From Myxococcales bacterium (lineage in GTDB: Bacteria; Myxococcota_A; Polyangia; Polyangiales; Polyangiaceae): 35,483 nt of DNA. The stretch spans positions 1 to 35,483 of the forward strand of contig CAHJWM010000049.1 in assembly GCA_903642325.1 (NCBI GenBank), in the 5' to 3' direction. Position 1 is the stretch's first letter; the number at the start of each line of letters is the position of its first letter. Under the pieces are notes generated by a model that saw only the letters and a list, made by a program, of their open reading frames with translations, was not told the DNA's origin and ran no database searches. Both the position numbers and the translations under genes were made by a program. Shown piece by piece: positions 20,917 through 35,483 of the stretch.

Positions 20917-22515
20917 TCAATTGTTGGGTGCGCCGTCTGTCGGCGCCGGCGCTTGCGACGCATGAGGCTCGGCCTCTTGGGCTGGCGGTACGGGATCTTG
21001 CGCGGGCGGAGTTGGAGCTTGGGGAGGCGGCGCGGTGGGCGCTGAGTCTTGGGCAGGCGTTACCGGCGCGGGCGTCGCGGGCTCCGGTACGGCCGGCAAC
21101 GACTCCGGCAGTGGCGGCACGGGTACGGGATACTTGGCAGCGGTCTGCTCGTCCGGTTCAGCAGCCGGAACCCCCGCCGCCGGGAATGTAGGCGGTAGCC
21201 GGTTCGTCACTGGCGCGCGGGTCAGCCCTCTGCTTTTCGCCGCTGCGGGCGGGTCAACCGCGTTCAGCGCTGAGGCGCTCGTTAGGGCGACCTCGGCCGG
21301 CATGCTTGGCGCAGACGCTGGTGGCGGGCTAACCAAGGCACTGTCGGGGCTCGGCTCGCTTCGAGCGGGTGCTATCGGCGCCGGCGCCGCCATCGAGCCC
21401 TGCTCGGCTCGTTCCTGCGCGAGAAGGCGAGCATTGCTGCGGGCGTGCCAGAAGTACAGCGCAAATACGGCAATCACGGCGCTCGCCAACAGTGAGACCG
21501 CGCCCAAACGACCCCGCGAGCGAGCCGCAGGCGCCGGCGGCCACGACGCACCGCTCCGCAAGTTGATGCCCGAGGCGATGCGTTGCATCTCCGCCGTCGT
21601 GACGCCCTCGGCCGCCAAAAAGTCTCTCAGCGCAACGGCCAGCTCCGTCGCACTTTGATAACGCTGATTTGGATCTTTGGCCAAGCAGCGACGAATGATG
21701 GCATCGAGCTCTGCCGGGGCGCTGCTCGATAGCTCGAGCAGAGAAGGCGCGGCACCGGCGAGCACTTGGGTATAGATGACGGGTAGTGAGTCACCGTCGA
21801 AAGGGCATTTCCCCGCCACGAGCTCGAACAAGATGGCCCCGAGCGACCAGATGTCGGCGCGCGCGTCGATCTCGAGCGAAGCGCGCATCTGCTCTGGGGC
21901 CATATAGTGCGGCGAACCTACGGCGAAGCCGGCGTTCGTCACCGCCGCCCGCGGGCTTGCTTCGAAAGCGGTGCCAACGTCTTTCGAAACGCCGAAATCC
22001 AAGATCTTCAACACGACACCCTCTGGGGTGTTCGCCAAAAACAAATTTTCTGGCTTCAGATCGCGGTGCACGATGCCGAGCGCGTGCGCTTCATTGAGAC
22101 CTTCACAGGCCTGTAATACCAGCTCCACCGCGGCGCGAGGAGACAACGCGCCGCCCTTGACCAGCGTGCTTGCCAAGTCGGCACCGGTGAGTTGCTCCAT
22201 CACGATGAACGGTGTGCCCGCGCCGGGCTGCTCGACATCGAGCACGCCTACGTCGAGCACGCGTACGACGTGGGCGCCGCGCATGCGGGCGACGGCGCGC
22301 GCTTCGAACAACATGCGCGCCACCACTTCTTCATTCTTCGCAAGCTCCTCGCGCATCAGCTTGATGGCGACGGGAGCTTCCAAATCCAGATGCGTGGCGC
22401 TCAGGACGACGCCCATGCCGCCGGCGCCCAGGAAGCCGTCGATACGGTACTTTCCGGCAACGATCGTGCCGCGGGGCAGGCCAACAGCGGGCGGTGCAAT
22501 CACGGGGTCGTTCAT
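20917..22515 (-). CDS. Transmembrane Ser/Thr protein kinase with Pro-rich tail
   Basis: A 532-aa Hanks-type kinase. Kinase domain, residues 22-300: glycine loop LGAGGMG (29-35), Lys52 in VAIK, catalytic HRDLKPEN (150-157), DFG (173-175), and GSPHYMAPEQ (200-209). All catalytic residues are present and it is an RD kinase, so it is probably active. One membrane helix lies at about 337-356 and is followed by about 175 residues extremely rich in Pro and Ala, presumably periplasmic, which could span or sense the cell wall. There is no PASTA, TPR or WD40 module. ATG 22515 is chosen; a GTG at 22560 is an alternative. Substrates unknown. Confidence 0.93.
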   Translation of the reverse strand: MNDPVIAPPAVGLPRGTIVAGKYRIDGFLGAGGMGVVLSATHLDLEAPVAIKLMREELAKNEEVVARMLFEARAVARMRGAHVVRVLDVGVLDVEQPGAGTPFIVMEQLTGADLASTLVKGGALSPRAAVELVLQACEGLNEAHALGIVHRDLKPENLFLANTPEGVVLKILDFGVSKDVGTAFEASPRAAVTNAGFAVGSPHYMAPEQMRASLEIDARADIWSLGAILFELVAGKCPFDGDSLPVIYTQVLAGAAPSLLELSSSAPAELDAIIRRCLAKDPNQRYQSATELAVALRDFLAAEGVTTAEMQRIASGINLRSGASWPPAPAARSRGRLGAVSLLASAVIAVFALYFWHARSNARLLAQERAEQGSMAAPAPIAPARSEPSPDSALVSPPPASAPSMPAEVALTSASALNAVDPPAAAKSRGLTRAPVTNRLPPTFPAAGVPAAEPDEQTAAKYPVPVPPLPESLPAVPEPATPAPVTPAQDSAPTAPPPQAPTPPAQDPVPPAQEAEPHASQAPAPTDGAPNN

Positions 22516-22615
22516 CGTTGGCGTCGGTTTGTCGGCGGCCGTCGGCCCGCAACCACCCACGCTAGCATAGCAAGACGGATGCCGCTTATGAGGCTTCGCT
22601 GCCCAGGGTTAGCGT

Positions 22616-26699: not shown

Positions 26700-29600
26700 G
26701 TGACGCGTCTCGTGCCGACGATGCTAAGCACCTCCCCGATGTCCGGCTCACCGTCCACCCCAGCGCCCGCTCGGCCTGAGTCTGGCCGTGCGCGGATCCG
26801 CTTCCCGGCCGAGCTACCGATCTCGGCGCGGGTTTCTGACATCGCGGCTCTGCTCGAGCAGCACCAAGTGCTGATCGTGGCGGGCGCTACCGGCTCCGGT
26901 AAGACCACGCAATTGCCGAAAATCATGCTCGATATGGGCCGCGGCACGGAGCGCTTGATCGGTGTTACCCAGCCGCGACGAATCGCCGCCACGAGCGTCG
27001 CCGCGCGCGTCGCGAGCGAGCTCGAGTGCGAGCTCGGTCAAGAGGTGGGTTACCAAATTCGCTTCGAAGAGCGCACCAGCCCTCGAACGTACGTGAAGTT
27101 CATGACGGACGGCATCCTGCTGGCCGAGATTCAAGGCGACCGACTGCTGCAGCGCTACGACACGCTGATCATCGACGAGGCCCACGAGCGCAGCCTGACC
27201 ATCGACTTTCTTTTGGGTTGGTTGAAGCGCATTTTGCCCGAGCGGCCCGAGCTCAAGGTCTTGGTCAGCTCGGCCACGATCGAGACCGAACGCTTCTCGG
27301 AGTTCTTCGGCGGCGCGCCGGTGATTCAGGTCGAGGGGCGCACGTTCCCGGTCGAGGTGTTGTACGAGCCGCCTGCGCCGGACTTGGAATTGTCCGAAGC
27401 CGTAGCCAACGCGGTGGCTTCGGTCACTTCCCTCGATTCACGCGGAGACATCTTGGTGTTTTTACCGGGGGAGCGCGAAATTCGCGAGACTGAACGCGAG
27501 CTCACGGCCAAGAATTTGCGCCACACCGTCGTGCAACCGCTTTACTCACGCTTGTCGGCCGCGGACCAACGCAAGGTGTTCACGGCCATCCCCCAGCGCC
27601 GTGTGATTCTGGCCACCAACGTCGCCGAAACGTCGCTCACCATCCCCGGCATCGTGTACGTGGTCGACACGGGCGTGGCGCGACTGGCACGCTACGAGCC
27701 GCGCACGGGCACCACCAGCCTGCAAATCGAAGCGGTCTCGCAAGCCAGCGCTGATCAACGCAAGGGCCGCTGCGGTCGCGTGCGCGATGGCATTTGCGTG
27801 CGCCTGTACGATGAAGCGAGCTTCGCCGCACGCCCGGCGTTCACCGACCCTGAGCTCAAACGCACCGGACTGTCCGGCGTGATCCTGCGGATGAAAGCGT
27901 TGTCCCTCGGAGACGTCGAAGATTTTCCGTTCCTCGACCCGCCGCAAAGTCGCGCTATCGCCGAAGGCTACCGAGTCTTGCAAGAGCTCGGCGCGCTCGA
28001 CGCCGAGCGCGCGCTCACGCCGCTCGGCGCGCGCTTGGCTCGCTTTCCGGTCGACCCGCGCATTGGTCGCATGATCTTGGCCGGCGTCGAGCAAGGCTGC
28101 GTCGCCGAGGTCTTGGTCCTGGCGGCGGCCTTGAACATTCAAGATCCGCGCGAGCGACCGCGCGCCGCCGAACAAAAAGCCGACCAATTACAGCAGCGTT
28201 TTAGGGTGGAAACCTCTGACTTTTTGGGCTTGTTGAAGCTGTGGGCATTCTTGCGCGAGGCACAGGCCAAGGGCATGTCCGAGCTTCGCCGGGTATGTCG
28301 GGACAACTTCATCTCCTTCCTGCGCGCGCGTGAGTGGGCGGAGGTCCATCGCCAGCTCGAGGACGTCGCCAAGGAATTGCGCATCAACGAGCCACGCGGC
28401 GCCGCGCCGAAAACCGAAGGCGATTTCGAGGGTCGGTTGCACCGTGCACTGCTGAGCGGCCTATTGTCGAAAATTGGGCTTTGGAATCCCGAGCAGCGCG
28501 CGTACATCGGCGCGAAGCAGACGCGGTTCATGCTGCACCCGTCCTCCGCCTTGGCCAAGAAGCCCCCCGCCTGGGTGATGGCCTTCGAGCTCGTGCAAAC
28601 GAGCCAGCTCTTCGCACGCACCGCCGCCAAGCTCGAGCCGGAATGGCTGGATCAGGTCGGCCATCACCTGCTGAAACGCAGCTACTCGGACCCACATTGG
28701 TCGGAGAAGTCGGCACGCAGCACCATCAAGGAGCACGCCACGCTCTTCGGCCTGCCCGTCTTCCGTGGGCGCAGTGTGGATTATGCGACGATTGCCCCGG
28801 GGCGTGCGCGCCTGTTGTTTTTGGAGCACGCGCTGGTGCGTGGCGAGTATCGCACGCGCGGCGCATTTCAAGAGCGCAACCGAAACCTCTTGGCCGAGGT
28901 AGCGCGCCAGCGCGACAAGGCCCGCCAGAGCGATCTACTGGCCGACGACGAAGCGCTGCTCTCGTTTTTCGATCGGCGCGTTCCCGAGGAGGTCGTGAAC
29001 GGCAACACCTTCGAGACCTGGCGCAGAGCCGCCGAGGCCAAAGACCCGGGCCTCCTCGAGCTGCGCTTGGAAGACGTGTTGACGCTGGAGCAGCGTCTAT
29101 TGCCGGCGCATTACCCCGACACATTGACGCTGCACGGCGTCGAGCTCCCGCTCACTTACCGGTTCGATCCATCGGCAGAGGACGACGGCGCCACTCTGTC
29201 CTTGCCTCTGCCTCTCCTGCTGCAACTCGATCCTGGTGAGCTCGATTGGACGATCCCGGGTTGGCACGAGCAAAAGATCAATGCGCTTTTGAGCGAGCTG
29301 CCTCGCGCCCTACGCCGCGACCTCGCTTCGATCCCCGAGCTTTCCGCGAGGCTCGCCGCTATTTTGACGCCGTTCGACGGACCGATGTTGCCCGCGCTCG
29401 CGCGCGCGGCGTCGGTCGCTTCCGGCGTCGACTTGCCAGAAAGCGCATTCCGAGTGGACGCCGTGCCGCCGTACATGCAACTCACGTGTCGGATCCTCGC
29501 CGAGGGCCGCGCGCTCGCGCAGAGCCGCGACGTACGTGCGCTGATCGAGCAGCACGGAGGTCACGCTCGTGAGGCCTTGCGCCGCGCTGCGCCGCCCCCA

Positions 29601-30458
29601 GAGTGGGAACGCCCAGGCCTCACCAGCTGGGACTTTGGCGAGCTGCCACCGTTCATCGTGCGCACGGTGCTCGGGGCCGAGCTTCGCGCCTATCCCGCGC
29701 TGATCGATCGCCAGAAGTCGGTCGATCTCCGCTTGCTCGAGTCGGCTGTTGCCGCAGAGACGGCCACCCGGTTCGGCGTCCGTCGCCTGCTGGCCCTGGC
29801 TGCGCACAAGTCGCTGGCCGTCTTCGCCAAGCAGGCCCCGCCACCCTTCGCCGGTCGGAACGGCCTTCTCGTGCCGCGCTCCGAGCAGGACGCCTTCCGG
29901 GAATCGTTCATGACGCGTTTGGTAGAAGAGGCGTTCGGGGCCGCCGTGCCGCGAGACCGTGCGGGCTTTCAGGCACTGCTCGACGCCGGTTTGCCGCGCA
30001 TTGCGCCCGCGTTCGCGCGCTTGCAGCGCGCCACGGCCCTCGCCGGAGCGGAGCTGCAAGTGACGCTCCGCGCCCTGGATGCCGCTACTAAGCATCCGAG
30101 CGGCACCGCCGCCAGCGCCGAGATCCGGGCGCAGATCGCCCAGCTCTTTACGCCCGACGTGCTCGGGAAGGTCGAGCTCGACCGGCTCGAGCAATTTCCG
30201 CGCTACTTGCGCGCGGCGCAGGCGCGGCTCGGCCGCGCCATCAGTGATCCTCGAAAGGATGCCGACAAGCTCGCCCCTTTTGCGCCGTTGTGGGCCGCCT
30301 TCCTGGCCAAGCGAGCGAGCTACGGTGACCCAGAGCCGGCGCGCGCTCTACGTTGGGCCTTCGAAGAGTTGCGCGTCGCGATCTTCGCGCCTGAGCTAAG
30401 GCCGGCCGGGCCGGTGTCGCTCGCCAATGTCGCGCTCGCCCTGTCCGCGCTGCGCTGA
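26700..30458 (+). CDS. hrpA: ATP-dependent RNA helicase HrpA (DEAH box)
   Basis: A 1252-aa DEAH-box helicase. Motif I GATGSGKTT (62-70), motif II DEAH (159-162), motif III SAT (191-193), TNVAETSLTIPG (306-317) and motif VI QRKGRCGRV (353-361) are all intact. Winged-helix, HA2/ratchet and OB-type segments follow (LDPPQSRAIAEGYRVLQELG, DPRERPRAAEQKADQLQQRF). About 500 residues make up the DUF3418 C-terminal region typical of bacterial HrpA; length is close to the usual ~1300. In E. coli HrpA acts in mRNA processing and the rescue of collided ribosomes. The start is uncertain: GTG 26700, ATG 26721 or ATG 26739, since residues 1-35 look disordered. It ends 4 bp from the convergent kinase-receiver gene. 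Confidence 0.95.
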   Translation: MTRLVPTMLSTSPMSGSPSTPAPARPESGRARIRFPAELPISARVSDIAALLEQHQVLIVAGATGSGKTTQLPKIMLDMGRGTERLIGVTQPRRIAATSVAARVASELECELGQEVGYQIRFEERTSPRTYVKFMTDGILLAEIQGDRLLQRYDTLIIDEAHERSLTIDFLLGWLKRILPERPELKVLVSSATIETERFSEFFGGAPVIQVEGRTFPVEVLYEPPAPDLELSEAVANAVASVTSLDSRGDILVFLPGEREIRETERELTAKNLRHTVVQPLYSRLSAADQRKVFTAIPQRRVILATNVAETSLTIPGIVYVVDTGVARLARYEPRTGTTSLQIEAVSQASADQRKGRCGRVRDGICVRLYDEASFAARPAFTDPELKRTGLSGVILRMKALSLGDVEDFPFLDPPQSRAIAEGYRVLQELGALDAERALTPLGARLARFPVDPRIGRMILAGVEQGCVAEVLVLAAALNIQDPRERPRAAEQKADQLQQRFRVETSDFLGLLKLWAFLREAQAKGMSELRRVCRDNFISFLRAREWAEVHRQLEDVAKELRINEPRGAAPKTEGDFEGRLHRALLSGLLSKIGLWNPEQRAYIGAKQTRFMLHPSSALAKKPPAWVMAFELVQTSQLFARTAAKLEPEWLDQVGHHLLKRSYSDPHWSEKSARSTIKEHATLFGLPVFRGRSVDYATIAPGRARLLFLEHALVRGEYRTRGAFQERNRNLLAEVARQRDKARQSDLLADDEALLSFFDRRVPEEVVNGNTFETWRRAAEAKDPGLLELRLEDVLTLEQRLLPAHYPDTLTLHGVELPLTYRFDPSAEDDGATLSLPLPLLLQLDPGELDWTIPGWHEQKINALLSELPRALRRDLASIPELSARLAAILTPFDGPMLPALARAASVASGVDLPESAFRVDAVPPYMQLTCRILAEGRALAQSRDVRALIEQHGGHAREALRRAAPPPEWERPGLTSWDFGELPPFIVRTVLGAELRAYPALIDRQKSVDLRLLESAVAAETATRFGVRRLLALAAHKSLAVFAKQAPPPFAGRNGLLVPRSEQDAFRESFMTRLVEEAFGAAVPRDRAGFQALLDAGLPRIAPAFARLQRATALAGAELQVTLRALDAATKHPSGTAASAEIRAQIAQLFTPDVLGKVELDRLEQFPRYLRAAQARLGRAISDPRKDADKLAPFAPLWAAFLAKRASYGDPEPARALRWAFEELRVAIFAPELRPAGPVSLANVALALSALR

Positions 30459-30462
30459 CGCG

Positions 30463-31815
30463 CTAGCGGACCGGAGTCGGAGCGCTCGGCAAGTTGCTGG
30501 AGCGTTCGCGCACCGCGCTGCGTAGCGTATTGACGACGTCATCCAAATTGACGGGCTTTACCAAAAAGCGGTCGGCGCCGAGCGAGGCCAATAGCTTCCA
30601 CTCCTGCGGACCCCCCGACGCGGTCATCACGATGATGGGCACGTTCTCCGCGTCCGGGCGGGCACGCAGTAGTGCCGTCACGGCCACGCCGTCGAGGATC
30701 GGCATCTGCAGGTCGATCATCACGACCGAGGCCGCCTTCTCTTCGAACGCATCCACCAGTGCCCGACCGTTTTCGACGCACACGATATCGGCGTCGGGGA
30801 ATTCCATGCCGAGCTTGAGCGCCAACAGATCGCGAAAGTCAGGATCATCTTCTGCAACCAGGATGCGGACGGGCTCGACACTCGAGGAACGGGCCTCTTT
30901 TAGACTGCGCCGGAATAGATCGGCGGACGGCGTGCGATCCTTCGGACGCTTCTCCAAGGCCTTCAAAATGACCTCGTCGAATGCCTTCGGTAAACCCGGC
31001 CGGCGCACGCTCGGCCGCTCGACGGTCCCGGTAGCGTGCTGCACCATCAGCCCAAGCGCGGTTTCAGAGGCATACGGCAGGGTTCCGGTCAGCATCTCGT
31101 AGGCCATGCAGCCGAGCGCGTACACGTCACTGCTGGGGCTCGCCGGTTGGTCGCCCTCGAATGTCAGCTCAGGCGCCATGTACTCGGGGGTGCCGGCGAT
31201 CACCTTCGTCACCTCGCCCTGAATGTAGGGCGCAGCCAAACCCAAGTCTGCCACCCGAACTCTGAGCTCGCTGTCTAAGAGCACGTTACTGGGCTTGAGG
31301 TCGCAGTGCACGGTGCCTGCGGCGTGAATCGCGGACACACCCAGGCAGACGTCGTTCAAGATGCCCAGCGCTTCGTCCAGATCCGGCCGCCGATCGCGTT
31401 GCGCCAGCCAGCCCTCCAACGTCTGGCCGTCCACGAGCTCCATGACGAAGTATGGGATGGCCCCGTGCTTACCAAAGGCGTGGATAGCTAACACATGCGG
31501 GTGATTGACGATCGCCATTGCCCGGGCTTCCTGCACGAAGCGCTCTTGTTCGTCACCGGCGATGGCCGCTAGGTTCACGAACTTGATGGCTACGTTCCGG
31601 TGTAGCTGGAGGTCGAAGGCCGCGAGCACGACGCCCATCGCGCCACGCCCGAGCTCGCCCAAAATGCGATAAACGCCGCCCACGACGTCTCCGAGCGCAG
31701 GCAGGTCGAGCTCTGGGTCGGAGCCACGCAGGAATTGGCCCAATAAGTGGTCGACGCGATTGCCTTCCGGATCGCCGCTACCAACCACCGTCGGACGCAG
31801 CGGACTCGGGCTCAT
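30463..31815 (-). CDS. Ser/Thr kinase fused to a response-regulator receiver domain
   Basis: A 450-aa cytosolic fusion with no membrane helix. Kinase, residues 48-305: glycine loop GELGRGAMG, Lys78 in VAIK, and GTPEYMAPE (208-216). The catalytic loop reads HCDLKPSN (170-177), with Cys for the usual Arg, and DFG is replaced by DLG (190-192), so it is a non-RD kinase that may be active without activation-loop phosphorylation. Receiver, residues 316-436: acidic pair Asp323/Asp324 in AEDDP, phosphoacceptor Asp368 in MIDLQMP, Thr398, and Lys420 in LVKPVN; all key residues are present. A histidine kinase could thus control a Ser/Thr kinase through the tail. None is encoded nearby. ATG 31815 is preferred over an upstream TTG. 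Confidence 0.93.
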   Translation of the reverse strand: MSPSPLRPTVVGSGDPEGNRVDHLLGQFLRGSDPELDLPALGDVVGGVYRILGELGRGAMGVVLAAFDLQLHRNVAIKFVNLAAIAGDEQERFVQEARAMAIVNHPHVLAIHAFGKHGAIPYFVMELVDGQTLEGWLAQRDRRPDLDEALGILNDVCLGVSAIHAAGTVHCDLKPSNVLLDSELRVRVADLGLAAPYIQGEVTKVIAGTPEYMAPELTFEGDQPASPSSDVYALGCMAYEMLTGTLPYASETALGLMVQHATGTVERPSVRRPGLPKAFDEVILKALEKRPKDRTPSADLFRRSLKEARSSSVEPVRILVAEDDPDFRDLLALKLGMEFPDADIVCVENGRALVDAFEEKAASVVMIDLQMPILDGVAVTALLRARPDAENVPIIVMTASGGPQEWKLLASLGADRFLVKPVNLDDVVNTLRSAVRERSSNLPSAPTPVR

Positions 31816-33044: not shown

Positions 33045-33620
33045 CCAACACGCCGCACGCCTCGACGCTTGCCGAGCGCGGGCACGGAGCGTGCTGCGAG
33101 GTGCGATGCAGGGCCGCGATCGCCCACCGGCCGAGGCGCACTTCTGGCAAAAAACGCGGTTTACCCGAAGGGGAGCTTGCGCCGCGCCCAGCTCACGTTC
33201 GTTTCGGATTGCTTACCTCGGTCGCCTCGGCGTTTGCACGCCCGGCCATTCGTCTTGCCGTCGATCGCGTTGCCGCCCCTCGCGAAGATTCCGCCCGGTT
33301 GAGCTCGACTTCACCGAGCTCGAACGGGCTGGCGCGGTGCAGCGCGAATGAGGTCGTTCTGCTTTCGAAGCCTCCGATCGCCCAGTGCTGGCTCATTGTT
33401 TCCCGCGCATGTCCGGGCCCGCGGCGTGGAGGAGCCGAGCCGGAGCGTCGTCACCCTGCAGAGACGGCGTTCGCGGGCGAAGAAGCGGCGGCAAAGCGCG
33501 TGCGATATATAGAGATTCGTTGGGGTCAAAAATCTGGCTTTGACAGCGTGCGGCGGGGCGGGCGATGCTTGCGAGTTACTTATCGTTTACGATTTTGTCG
33601 CCGTAGTAGTGGGTGGTCGC
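33045..33620. other. Gene-free region (576 bp) upstream of third kinase
   Basis: Open frames here are out of register with the kinase and read unlike protein. It holds a long imperfect hairpin (33294-33328), a GTCAAA/TTTGAC repeat (33525-33530, 33539-33544), an unusually AT-rich patch (around 33504-33516, TATATAGAGATTCG) and an ATCGT-TT-ACGAT dyad (33582-33593) just upstream of the kinase start. TTGACA at 33540-33545 could be a -35 box, but no good -10 lies at the right distance. Confidence 0.5.
33294..33328. other. 14-bp imperfect hairpin
   Basis: CCCGGTTGAGCTCG (33294-33307) pairs with CGAGCTCGAACGGG (33315-33328) at 12 of 14 positions plus one G-U, around a 7-nt loop. No T-tract follows. 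It is 250 bp past the DUF3634-like gene, so it may be a distal terminator, part of a small RNA, or a binding site. Confidence 0.4.
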
Positions 33621-35483
33621 ATGCCGGTCAACGGTCCCTCGGAGTCGGTTCCAAGCATATTTCCCGGCGCCACGATATCTGGCCGGTTCAGGCTAGACCG
33701 GCTGCTCGGGCGCGGCTCGATGGGATCCGTCTGGCTTGCCAGGCACCTGACCCTGGACGTGGACGTGGCGGTCAAATTCATCGATGCAGCCTTCCGCGAT
33801 CAAAAAGATCATCGCGGGCGTTTTGCGCTCGAGGCGCAAGCGGCCGCCCGCATCAACAGCCCGCACGTGGTCAACGTGCTGGACTTCGGTGCGGAAGAAT
33901 CGGGGCGCCTCTATATCGCCATGGAGTACCTGCAGGGGGAGGACGTAGGCAAACTGCTCGACCGCAGTGGTCGCCTCTCGCCAGAGATCACTGCACGCAT
34001 CGTCAGCCATGCCTGCCGAGGCTTGGCGCGTGCCCATGCTTTGGGCATCGCGCACCGCGACATGAAACCCGAGAATCTGTTTCTGTGCGGGGCGACCGAA
34101 GAGGAAGGCTTCGTGCTGAAGATTTTGGACTTTGGGGTAGCCAAGTCGGCACAACGGCAGGGCCTAGATTTCGTTGGCACGACCGTGGGCCAGCTCGTTG
34201 GCAGCCCTGCCTACATGAGCCCCGAACAAGCCCACGGCTCGCTCGACGTCGACTTTCGCTCGGACCTATTTTCGCTGGCGGTGGTCGCTTACCACTGTCT
34301 CACGGGAGTCGTCCCCTTCGGGGGTGACTCCTTGGCCGAGCTGCTGATCGGCATCGTGAGCAAGGATCCGATCCCAGTTTCGCGACTGGCGCCCGACATG
34401 CCGAAAGCCGTGGATGAATGGTTTGCCCGCGCCCTCGATAAAAATCCGGCGCGCCGTTTCGCGTCCGCGAAGGAGCTCGCGCAGGCCTTTCACATGGCCA
34501 TCGGGCATTATGCTTCTTCCGCCACGGGCTACACCACTTCGCGTAGCGTCGGCTCCCAAACGGTGACCAGACCGATGCCCACCGATACAGTGGTGAGTTT
34601 GAATTATGCAACGCGGCCCGCCACCTCGAACGCGGCCGACGTCTCGAACCACACCGCGTACCCCGGTGTCGGGCTAGCACTCGCGCAAGTTGCGGAGGTC
34701 AGCAATGTGCTTGGCGTCGCGCTGATCGGGCCCGACGGTGATTCGGTCGCTCATCACAGTGGCCTTGGGTTACCCGCGAGCACGTTTGCCGACGTCGCGC
34801 GCCGCGCGAGGGGTTCACTCGACGCGTTCGAGAGCCTGGAATCGAGCGCCAAACAAGCGCTGGCGCTGTATTTCGAAACCGCGACCGTACTCCTGCGCTG
34901 GGTCGAAAGCCATGCGTTGGTCGTCATCGGGACCGAACAAGTTCACCCAACCGTCCTGTCGGTCAGCGTCGGCGCGTCCGCGTCCAAACTGCAGGCACTG
35001 GCCAAGCAGAGCGGCGGTGCGGCGGTGGCCTTCCGCTCTACCCGGTCTTCGTTGCGGGAAAATGCGATCTCGGAGGTGAATCCCGGTGTCGCGGTATCCC
35101 CCGCGTCCACCGACCCGATTCCCGACTCGACCATCGCACGTCTCACTCAGCTCTACGCCAAGCCGCTCGGTGCAGTGGGTCGGCTTGCCATTCAACAACG
35201 TTTGAAGAGCGGTAAACCAACGTTCGCGAGCTATCCGGCTTTCATACAGCGCTTGGCTGCGCTGATCGAGGATGGCACAGAGCGCGATTCATTTACGGAG
35301 AGCGCGCTTCAGCTCGTCCCGCACGCGGACAGCGCCGTGTCGCCCGTGCCCGCGCCGGTGACGTCGGGAACGTTGTCCTCTGCGCAGTCGATCCTGCCGC
35401 AGCGCCCGGCCCCGCCGAGGCCGCAATTCGTTCAGACACCCTTGCCGGCGCGCGCGCCGGCGCCTACGCCGCCGCGCCCACAG
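33621..35483 (+). CDS. Ser/Thr protein kinase with Roadblock-like tail (partial at right edge)
   Basis: The frame is open from ATG 33621 to the window end (621 codons). Kinase, residues 22-290: LGRGSMGSVW, Lys52 in VAVK, HRDMKPEN (145-152), DFG (170-172), GSPAYMSPEQ (194-203); a complete RD kinase. Residues about 350-460 look like a Roadblock/LC7 module (VLGVALIGPDGDSVAHH, then LLRWVESHALVVIGTEQ). Such modules commonly partner MglA-type small GTPases in bacteria. Residues about 503-565 (IARLTQLYAKPLGAVGRLAI) match a helical domain often attached to bacterial kinases (DUF8082-type, from memory). A Pro-rich stretch reaches the edge. No membrane helix is seen so far. GGTGG lies shortly before the ATG. 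Confidence 0.9.
   Translation, partial: MPVNGPSESVPSIFPGATISGRFRLDRLLGRGSMGSVWLARHLTLDVDVAVKFIDAAFRDQKDHRGRFALEAQAAARINSPHVVNVLDFGAEESGRLYIAMEYLQGEDVGKLLDRSGRLSPEITARIVSHACRGLARAHALGIAHRDMKPENLFLCGATEEEGFVLKILDFGVAKSAQRQGLDFVGTTVGQLVGSPAYMSPEQAHGSLDVDFRSDLFSLAVVAYHCLTGVVPFGGDSLAELLIGIVSKDPIPVSRLAPDMPKAVDEWFARALDKNPARRFASAKELAQAFHMAIGHYASSATGYTTSRSVGSQTVTRPMPTDTVVSLNYATRPATSNAADVSNHTAYPGVGLALAQVAEVSNVLGVALIGPDGDSVAHHSGLGLPASTFADVARRARGSLDAFESLESSAKQALALYFETATVLLRWVESHALVVIGTEQVHPTVLSVSVGASASKLQALAKQSGGAAVAFRSTRSSLRENAISEVNPGVAVSPASTDPIPDSTIARLTQLYAKPLGAVGRLAIQQRLKSGKPTFASYPAFIQRLAALIEDGTERDSFTESALQLVPHADSAVSPVPAPVTSGTLSSAQSILPQRPAPPRPQFVQTPLPARAPAPTPPRPQ

Follow-up and report, generated by a model that had tools for sequence, protein, structure and literature searches.

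Gene and domain architecture

The window, by which we mean the whole stretch of 35,483 nucleotides that was analysed, encodes a predicted kinase-receiver fusion protein on its minus strand (Table 1). The frame opens with ATG at 31815 and closes with a stop codon at 30463-30465; an alternative TTG start lies 24 bases upstream of the ATG. The plus-strand frame over the same positions is full of stops, and the open reading frame occurs on the minus strand only. Given the open 450-codon frame, the matches to two protein families and the approximately 60 full-length relatives described below, the fusion is not a chance reading frame. The best NCBIfam model is PknB_PASTA_kin, but the match is sub-threshold. 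We conclude that the predicted product combines, in one chain, a eukaryote-style Ser/Thr protein kinase and a bacterial receiver switch.

Table 1. Features of the kinase-receiver fusion gene, with positions in the window.
Feature	Positions	Strand	Evidence
Kinase-receiver fusion gene	30463..31815	-	450 aa, ATG start, stop codon included; ORF with PF00069 and PF00072
N-terminal extension, residues 1-48, mostly disordered, unconserved	31672..31815	-	pLDDT <50 for residues 1-32
Predicted Hanks-type Ser/Thr kinase domain, residues 49-298	30922..31671	-	Pfam Pkinase PF00069, E 1.3e-47; best structural matches PknB/PknA
ATP-anchoring Lys78	31582..31584	-	Lys in 59/60 of the family
HCD 170-172: catalytic-loop His, Cys for Arg, catalytic Asp	31300..31308	-	Codons CAC TGC GAC; Asp172 in 60/60
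DLG 190-192, Mg-binding Asp	31240..31248	-	Asp190 in 60/60; position 191 L35 F18 M6 Q1
Junction 299-317; last kinase helix 298-312 runs almost straight into receiver strand 1	30865..30921	-	DSSP on AlphaFold2 model
Receiver domain, residues 318-431	30523..30864	-	Pfam Response_reg PF00072, E 2.4e-18
Phospho-acceptor Asp368	30712..30714	-	Asp in 58/58 members with a complete receiver
Switch Thr398	30622..30624	-	T47 S10 A1 (Thr or Ser in 57/58)
Trp406, family signature, receiver helix 4	30598..30600	-	52/58 of the family vs 0/20 other receivers of the genome
Receiver Lys420	30556..30558	-	Lys in 58/58

The kinase domain carries GRGAMG from residue 56, Lys78 within VAIK, Glu96 of helix C, the HCD and DLG motifs with Asn177 between them, and APE at residues 214-216. 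Together with the PF00069 match, these are the features of a Hanks-type Ser/Thr kinase. Because Lys78, Glu96, Asp172, Asn177, Asp190 and the APE motif are all present, there is no sign that the kinase would be dead. The Arg that precedes the catalytic Asp in RD kinases is replaced by Cys171. The receiver has the acidic pair (D323/D324), the phospho-accepting Asp, the Thr and the Lys expected of a phosphorylatable domain. The highest 19-residue Kyte-Doolittle mean is 1.65 and falls in the receiver core; since there is no strongly hydrophobic segment, the protein is probably soluble. An initial annotation of this DNA had described a soluble protein uniting a Hanks-type kinase and an intact receiver, with HCD for HRD, DLG for DFG, the Lys and catalytic Asp retained, an APE-like motif (a true APE, as given above) and all receiver phosphorylation residues kept. 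These readings stand, as does its numbering of C171 and D368.

An AlphaFold2 model of the protein contains two confidently predicted domains (mean pLDDT 85.8, pTM 0.78). The kinase fold ends with a helix that spans residues 298-312, and strand 1 of the receiver, which comprises five beta-alpha units by DSSP, begins at residue 317. The input was a 46-row alignment in which only two sequences were full length, the rest being single-domain rows. We read the model for its domain folds rather than for the relative placing of the domains. The closest solved structures, both by sequence and by fold, are the kinase domains of PknB and PknA. Kinase matches account for all 50 structures listed by the structure search, which is uninformative on domain placing.

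Two further Hanks kinases are encoded in the window, which thus holds three. One lies at 20917-22560 (minus strand). The other, at 33402-35483 (plus strand, start near 33.5 kb), has HRD and DFG motifs and runs off the contig end. A HrpA-like DEAH helicase gene (DUF3418; 26700-30458, plus strand) is convergent with the kinase-receiver gene, and the two genes end 4 bases apart.

An old kinase-receiver family in Polyangia

Full-length alignment over both domains links the window copy to relatives with up to 60% identity. Within the order, 73 of the 183 genomes sampled have matches to the fusion (E <= 1e-60), and these represent 40 of 83 genera. In a sample of the phylum, 19 of 282 genomes encode the fusion, and all 19 belong to one class. 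Among the best 80 matches in a GTDB-based collection, just one named record, a Myxococcales metagenome-assembled genome (L011), has the complete fusion in a single frame. In a plasmid search, no fusion reached 80% coverage of the query. The genome to which the window belongs (5.83 Mb in 140 contigs) encodes a second full-length copy with 56% identity and an HRD motif.

Catalytic residues of the kinase (60 aligned members) and of the receiver (58 members in which it is complete) are close to invariant (Table 1). This is despite mean pairwise identities within the family of only 47% between kinase domains and 45% between receivers, and suggests that both active sites are held under selection. 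Distances for the two domains are correlated (r 0.79). All but one of the 58 family receivers form a single clade, which includes that of the window copy and is apart from 20 other receivers of its genome. The exception (L114) is a receiver-tailed kinase whose receiver groups with ordinary receivers; it is likely the product of an independent fusion event. We conclude that the fusion, as judged from these comparisons, is an old family of one myxobacterial class and no oddity.

The distance from R294 to D323 across the junction is 28 residues in 29 members, including the window copy, and 31 residues in 21. Along with Trp406, which the window copy shares, the family receivers are distinguished from the others of the genome by Phe417 (54/58 vs 3/20) and Gly402 (51/58 vs 2/20). 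Counting from the Thr and the Lys, we take Trp406 to correspond to Ile95 of CheY, which is on helix 4, part of the CheY output face. Thus, we infer that Trp406 belongs to a signal-transmitting contact.

Variation in the catalytic loop

At position 171, the 60 aligned members have Arg in 44, Gly in 10, and Cys, Leu and Ala in two each, and the tree requires at least eight changes between Arg and other residues. Arg occupies the site in the closest relatives and in the paralogue of this genome, and a single base separates the codon of the window copy, TGC, from CGC. HCD is a single-base, one-letter variant. The kinome of the genome, compiled as 81 kinase domains from regions around search hits (very divergent kinases may be missing), has 68 HRD, 5 HGD, 4 HCD, 2 HRN, 1 HQD and 1 HLD motifs. 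The same Arg is only 73.8% conserved in cyanobacterial kinases (PMC2176072). DLG is rare in the genome (3/81 kinase domains), yet it is the commonest form in the fusion family (35/60). An open frame of 731 codons at G000 C7:47239-49671 has two tandem kinase domains (L201 and L202), both with HRN for HRD and with DFS or DFA for DFG, and probably encodes a tandem pseudokinase.

These counts shift the emphasis of the initial annotation. The term non-RD fits the window copy through C171, but not a family with HRD in 44 of 60 members. DLG, being the usual family form, deserves little weight, and the same is true of HCD, as a one-base change that is absent from the nearest relatives and recurs in three other kinases of the genome. 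The fusion is widespread in the order, and Cys171 occurs in two of the 60 aligned members. Because Cys occupies the site in only 2/60, the suggestion of a redox-sensitive catalytic-loop Cys is without evolutionary support, and we rejected it on the family counts, the kinome (4/81) and the tree. Other cysteines are poorly conserved (position 236 is Cys in 28/60). Loss of the HRD Arg could alter the activity of the window copy.

Two-component genes beside relatives of the fusion

Profiles for receivers and histidine kinases were used to scan 62 fusion neighbourhoods. Of 52 loci with full flanks, 24 have a two-component gene no more than 1.5 kb from the fusion; among 82 control kinases, 4 have one at 2 kb (p 1.4e-8 by Fisher's test, an optimistic value to be used as a guide only, as the loci are related). 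The phosphotransfer genes occur in three arrangements.

In the first, found at 20 loci in 16 genera (families f3, f5 and f10), the adjacent gene is divergent, and its product has an HPt domain ahead of a receiver. Pfam analysis of nine of these proteins identified Response_reg in all nine and Hpt above the curated cut-off in seven, below it in one and not at all in one. The phospho-His, phospho-Asp and Lys are present in 20/20. The neighbour was detected by profile scanning; plain BLAST clustering missed it, probably due to overlapping false open reading frames. Its appearance requires one change on the tree. Of the 183 genomes of the order, 24 encode HPt-receiver proteins, and all 24 also encode the fusion; the genes adjoin the fusion in 22, and in the other two they are at contig breaks. 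In two relatives, L120 and L121, the gene divergent from the fusion encodes a large protein that combines lamin-tail and pyruvate-phosphate-dikinase domains (L120:5575-8781, minus strand).

The second arrangement, in two loci of one species (L011 and L271), is a series of genes for a histidine kinase, an NtrC-type sigma-54 regulator, a histidine kinase, a receiver and a receiver, with the fusion last. The final receiver gene shares an ATGA overlap with the fusion. In the third, a receiver-histidine-kinase gene is directly downstream of the fusion in g20, a genus with large genomes (L131, L290 and L294). At another locus (L133), the fusion is followed, in the same direction, by a PAS histidine kinase gene whose longest frame overlaps the fusion end.

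The joining of two-component and Hanks-type signalling proposed in the initial annotation is strengthened by the conservation of the family, the single origin of its receiver clade and these neighbours of relatives. The window copy itself has neither the divergent HPt-receiver gene nor the 31-residue spacing of the HPt-receiver-paired branch, and profile scanning identified no two-component gene within 1.5 kb of it or of its close relatives. Since its branch is without such a neighbour, the two-component link of the window copy is by descent only. We found no conserved neighbourhood for this copy; the adjacent HrpA-like helicase and NUDIX genes are absent beside relatives. No HPt-receiver match was detected in its genome at 1e-35.

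The genome has only four HPt matches. One contig (C34) encodes a protein with HisKA, receiver and HPt domains but no ATPase domain (L337:2443-3714, plus strand), directly after an NtrC-type regulator gene. Given the small number of HPt matches, this protein may donate phosphate to orphan receivers. It was set aside as the donor for the window copy, as nothing ties it to the gene.

Proposed function and alternatives

Intact active sites, joint inheritance of the two domains and phosphotransfer genes beside relatives support the reading of the fusion as a response regulator. We consider it probable that the output is a Hanks-type Ser/Thr kinase and that the protein is fed by a phosphorelay. A histidine kinase or HPt protein would phosphorylate Asp368, and the receiver would then shift shape at the face formed by helix 4, strand 5 and helix 5, where Trp406, Phe417 and the Gly-Gly after Thr398 are found. 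The signal may reach the last kinase helix across the short, rigid junction, or be passed on by receiver pairing, so that downstream Ser/Thr phosphorylation would be raised or lowered; the sign of control is unreadable from sequence. The most likely donor in one large branch is the HPt-receiver protein of the divergent neighbouring gene; in other branches it would be a neighbouring histidine kinase, and for the window copy a donor would have to act from elsewhere in the genome. The evidence somewhat favours a dedicated Polyangia phosphorelay module, in which the divergent pair of HPt-receiver and receiver-tailed Hanks kinase turns His-Asp signals into Ser/Thr phosphorylation and the branch of the window copy is without a linked donor. 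The sequences show intact domains, their joint inheritance and the association with neighbouring genes in relatives, and from these we infer phosphotransfer to Asp368, kinase activity, a direction of control and targets.

The receiver may instead be a docking or pairing module that unites two kinases or recruits substrates, without allostery of one kinase domain. The helix 4-strand 5-helix 5 face is commonly used by receivers for pairing or docking, and it is the face with the conserved Trp406 and Gly-Gly. In addition, the closest structural matches are of the PknB type, and bacterial Hanks kinases of this type are activated by pairing. A junction in which helix end (312) and strand start (317) are so close, and which is of near-constant length, is better suited to rigid coupling, although it is compatible with pairing. 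We regard this alternative, which overlaps the pairing variant of the response-regulator reading, as possible but doubtful. It is unlikely that the flow is reversed, with the kinase phosphorylating Ser/Thr residues of its own receiver, or of the partner HPt-receiver, and Hanks signalling thereby tuning a two-component system. The fused layout would place the receiver within reach of the kinase, and Ser/Thr phosphorylation of response regulators by Hanks kinases is documented in other bacteria (PMC12189002). Such a flow alone needs no strict Asp/Thr/Lys phospho-Asp chemistry, yet the Asp and the Lys are both invariant.

An intact receiver in the partner HPt-receiver protein makes a multi-step relay possible, and the receiver of the fusion could be a phosphate sink or relay station beside an independent kinase domain. 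The joint descent of the domains over about 100 members and the conserved junction favour functional coupling, and make this quite improbable. Least credible, and very improbable indeed, is a redox-sensitive non-RD kinase with Cys171 as sensor and the receiver as second input. Cys171 is located in the catalytic loop, but one of the only two family members with this residue is the window copy itself, its nearest relatives and paralogue have Arg, HCD is found in three other kinases of the genome, and the other cysteines, such as Cys236, are not well conserved.

Comparison with known systems

The window protein has the kinase fold and catalytic residues of the PknB/PknA-type Hanks kinases. It differs from them in that it lacks a membrane helix and PASTA domains, has a C-terminal receiver and has lost the HRD Arg. 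Ser/Thr protein kinase activities are described as 'probable' in the 2009 P2CS list of enzymes among two-component proteins (PMC2716373). The response regulators with enzymatic output in this list likewise combine a receiver with an enzyme, but the list gives activities only, and neither the family nor the HPt-receiver partner. PA3346 of Pseudomonas aeruginosa has a receiver and a Ser/Thr phosphatase controlled by histidine-kinase phosphorylation of the receiver (PMC12189002). Both it and the window protein join a receiver to a Ser/Thr-directed enzyme, but in PA3346 the enzyme is a phosphatase and the receiver is N-terminal. Proteins that unite a receiver and a Ser/Thr enzyme are thus already known as a kind, and the pairing with an HPt-receiver protein is new here. 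No description of the fusion family or of this partner was found in the literature searched, where partial coverage makes this weak evidence.

Fusions of kinases with histidine kinases are known from cyanobacterial Ser/Thr kinases with GAF and HisKA domains (PMC2176072) and from Dictyostelium DhkG (PMC1420674). These proteins, like the window protein, have a Hanks kinase and a two-component module in one chain. They carry the histidine-kinase module, whereas the window protein has the receiver alone, and thus the receiving end. What is known of crosstalk between the two big phospho-signalling systems of bacteria comes mostly from cases in which the target of a Ser/Thr kinase is a separate response regulator. 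The family looks like a hard-wired link in the opposite direction, inherited across an order in which both systems are unusually abundant. The HPt-receiver and kinase-receiver pair names partners with which to ask whether Asp phosphorylation gates a Hanks kinase.
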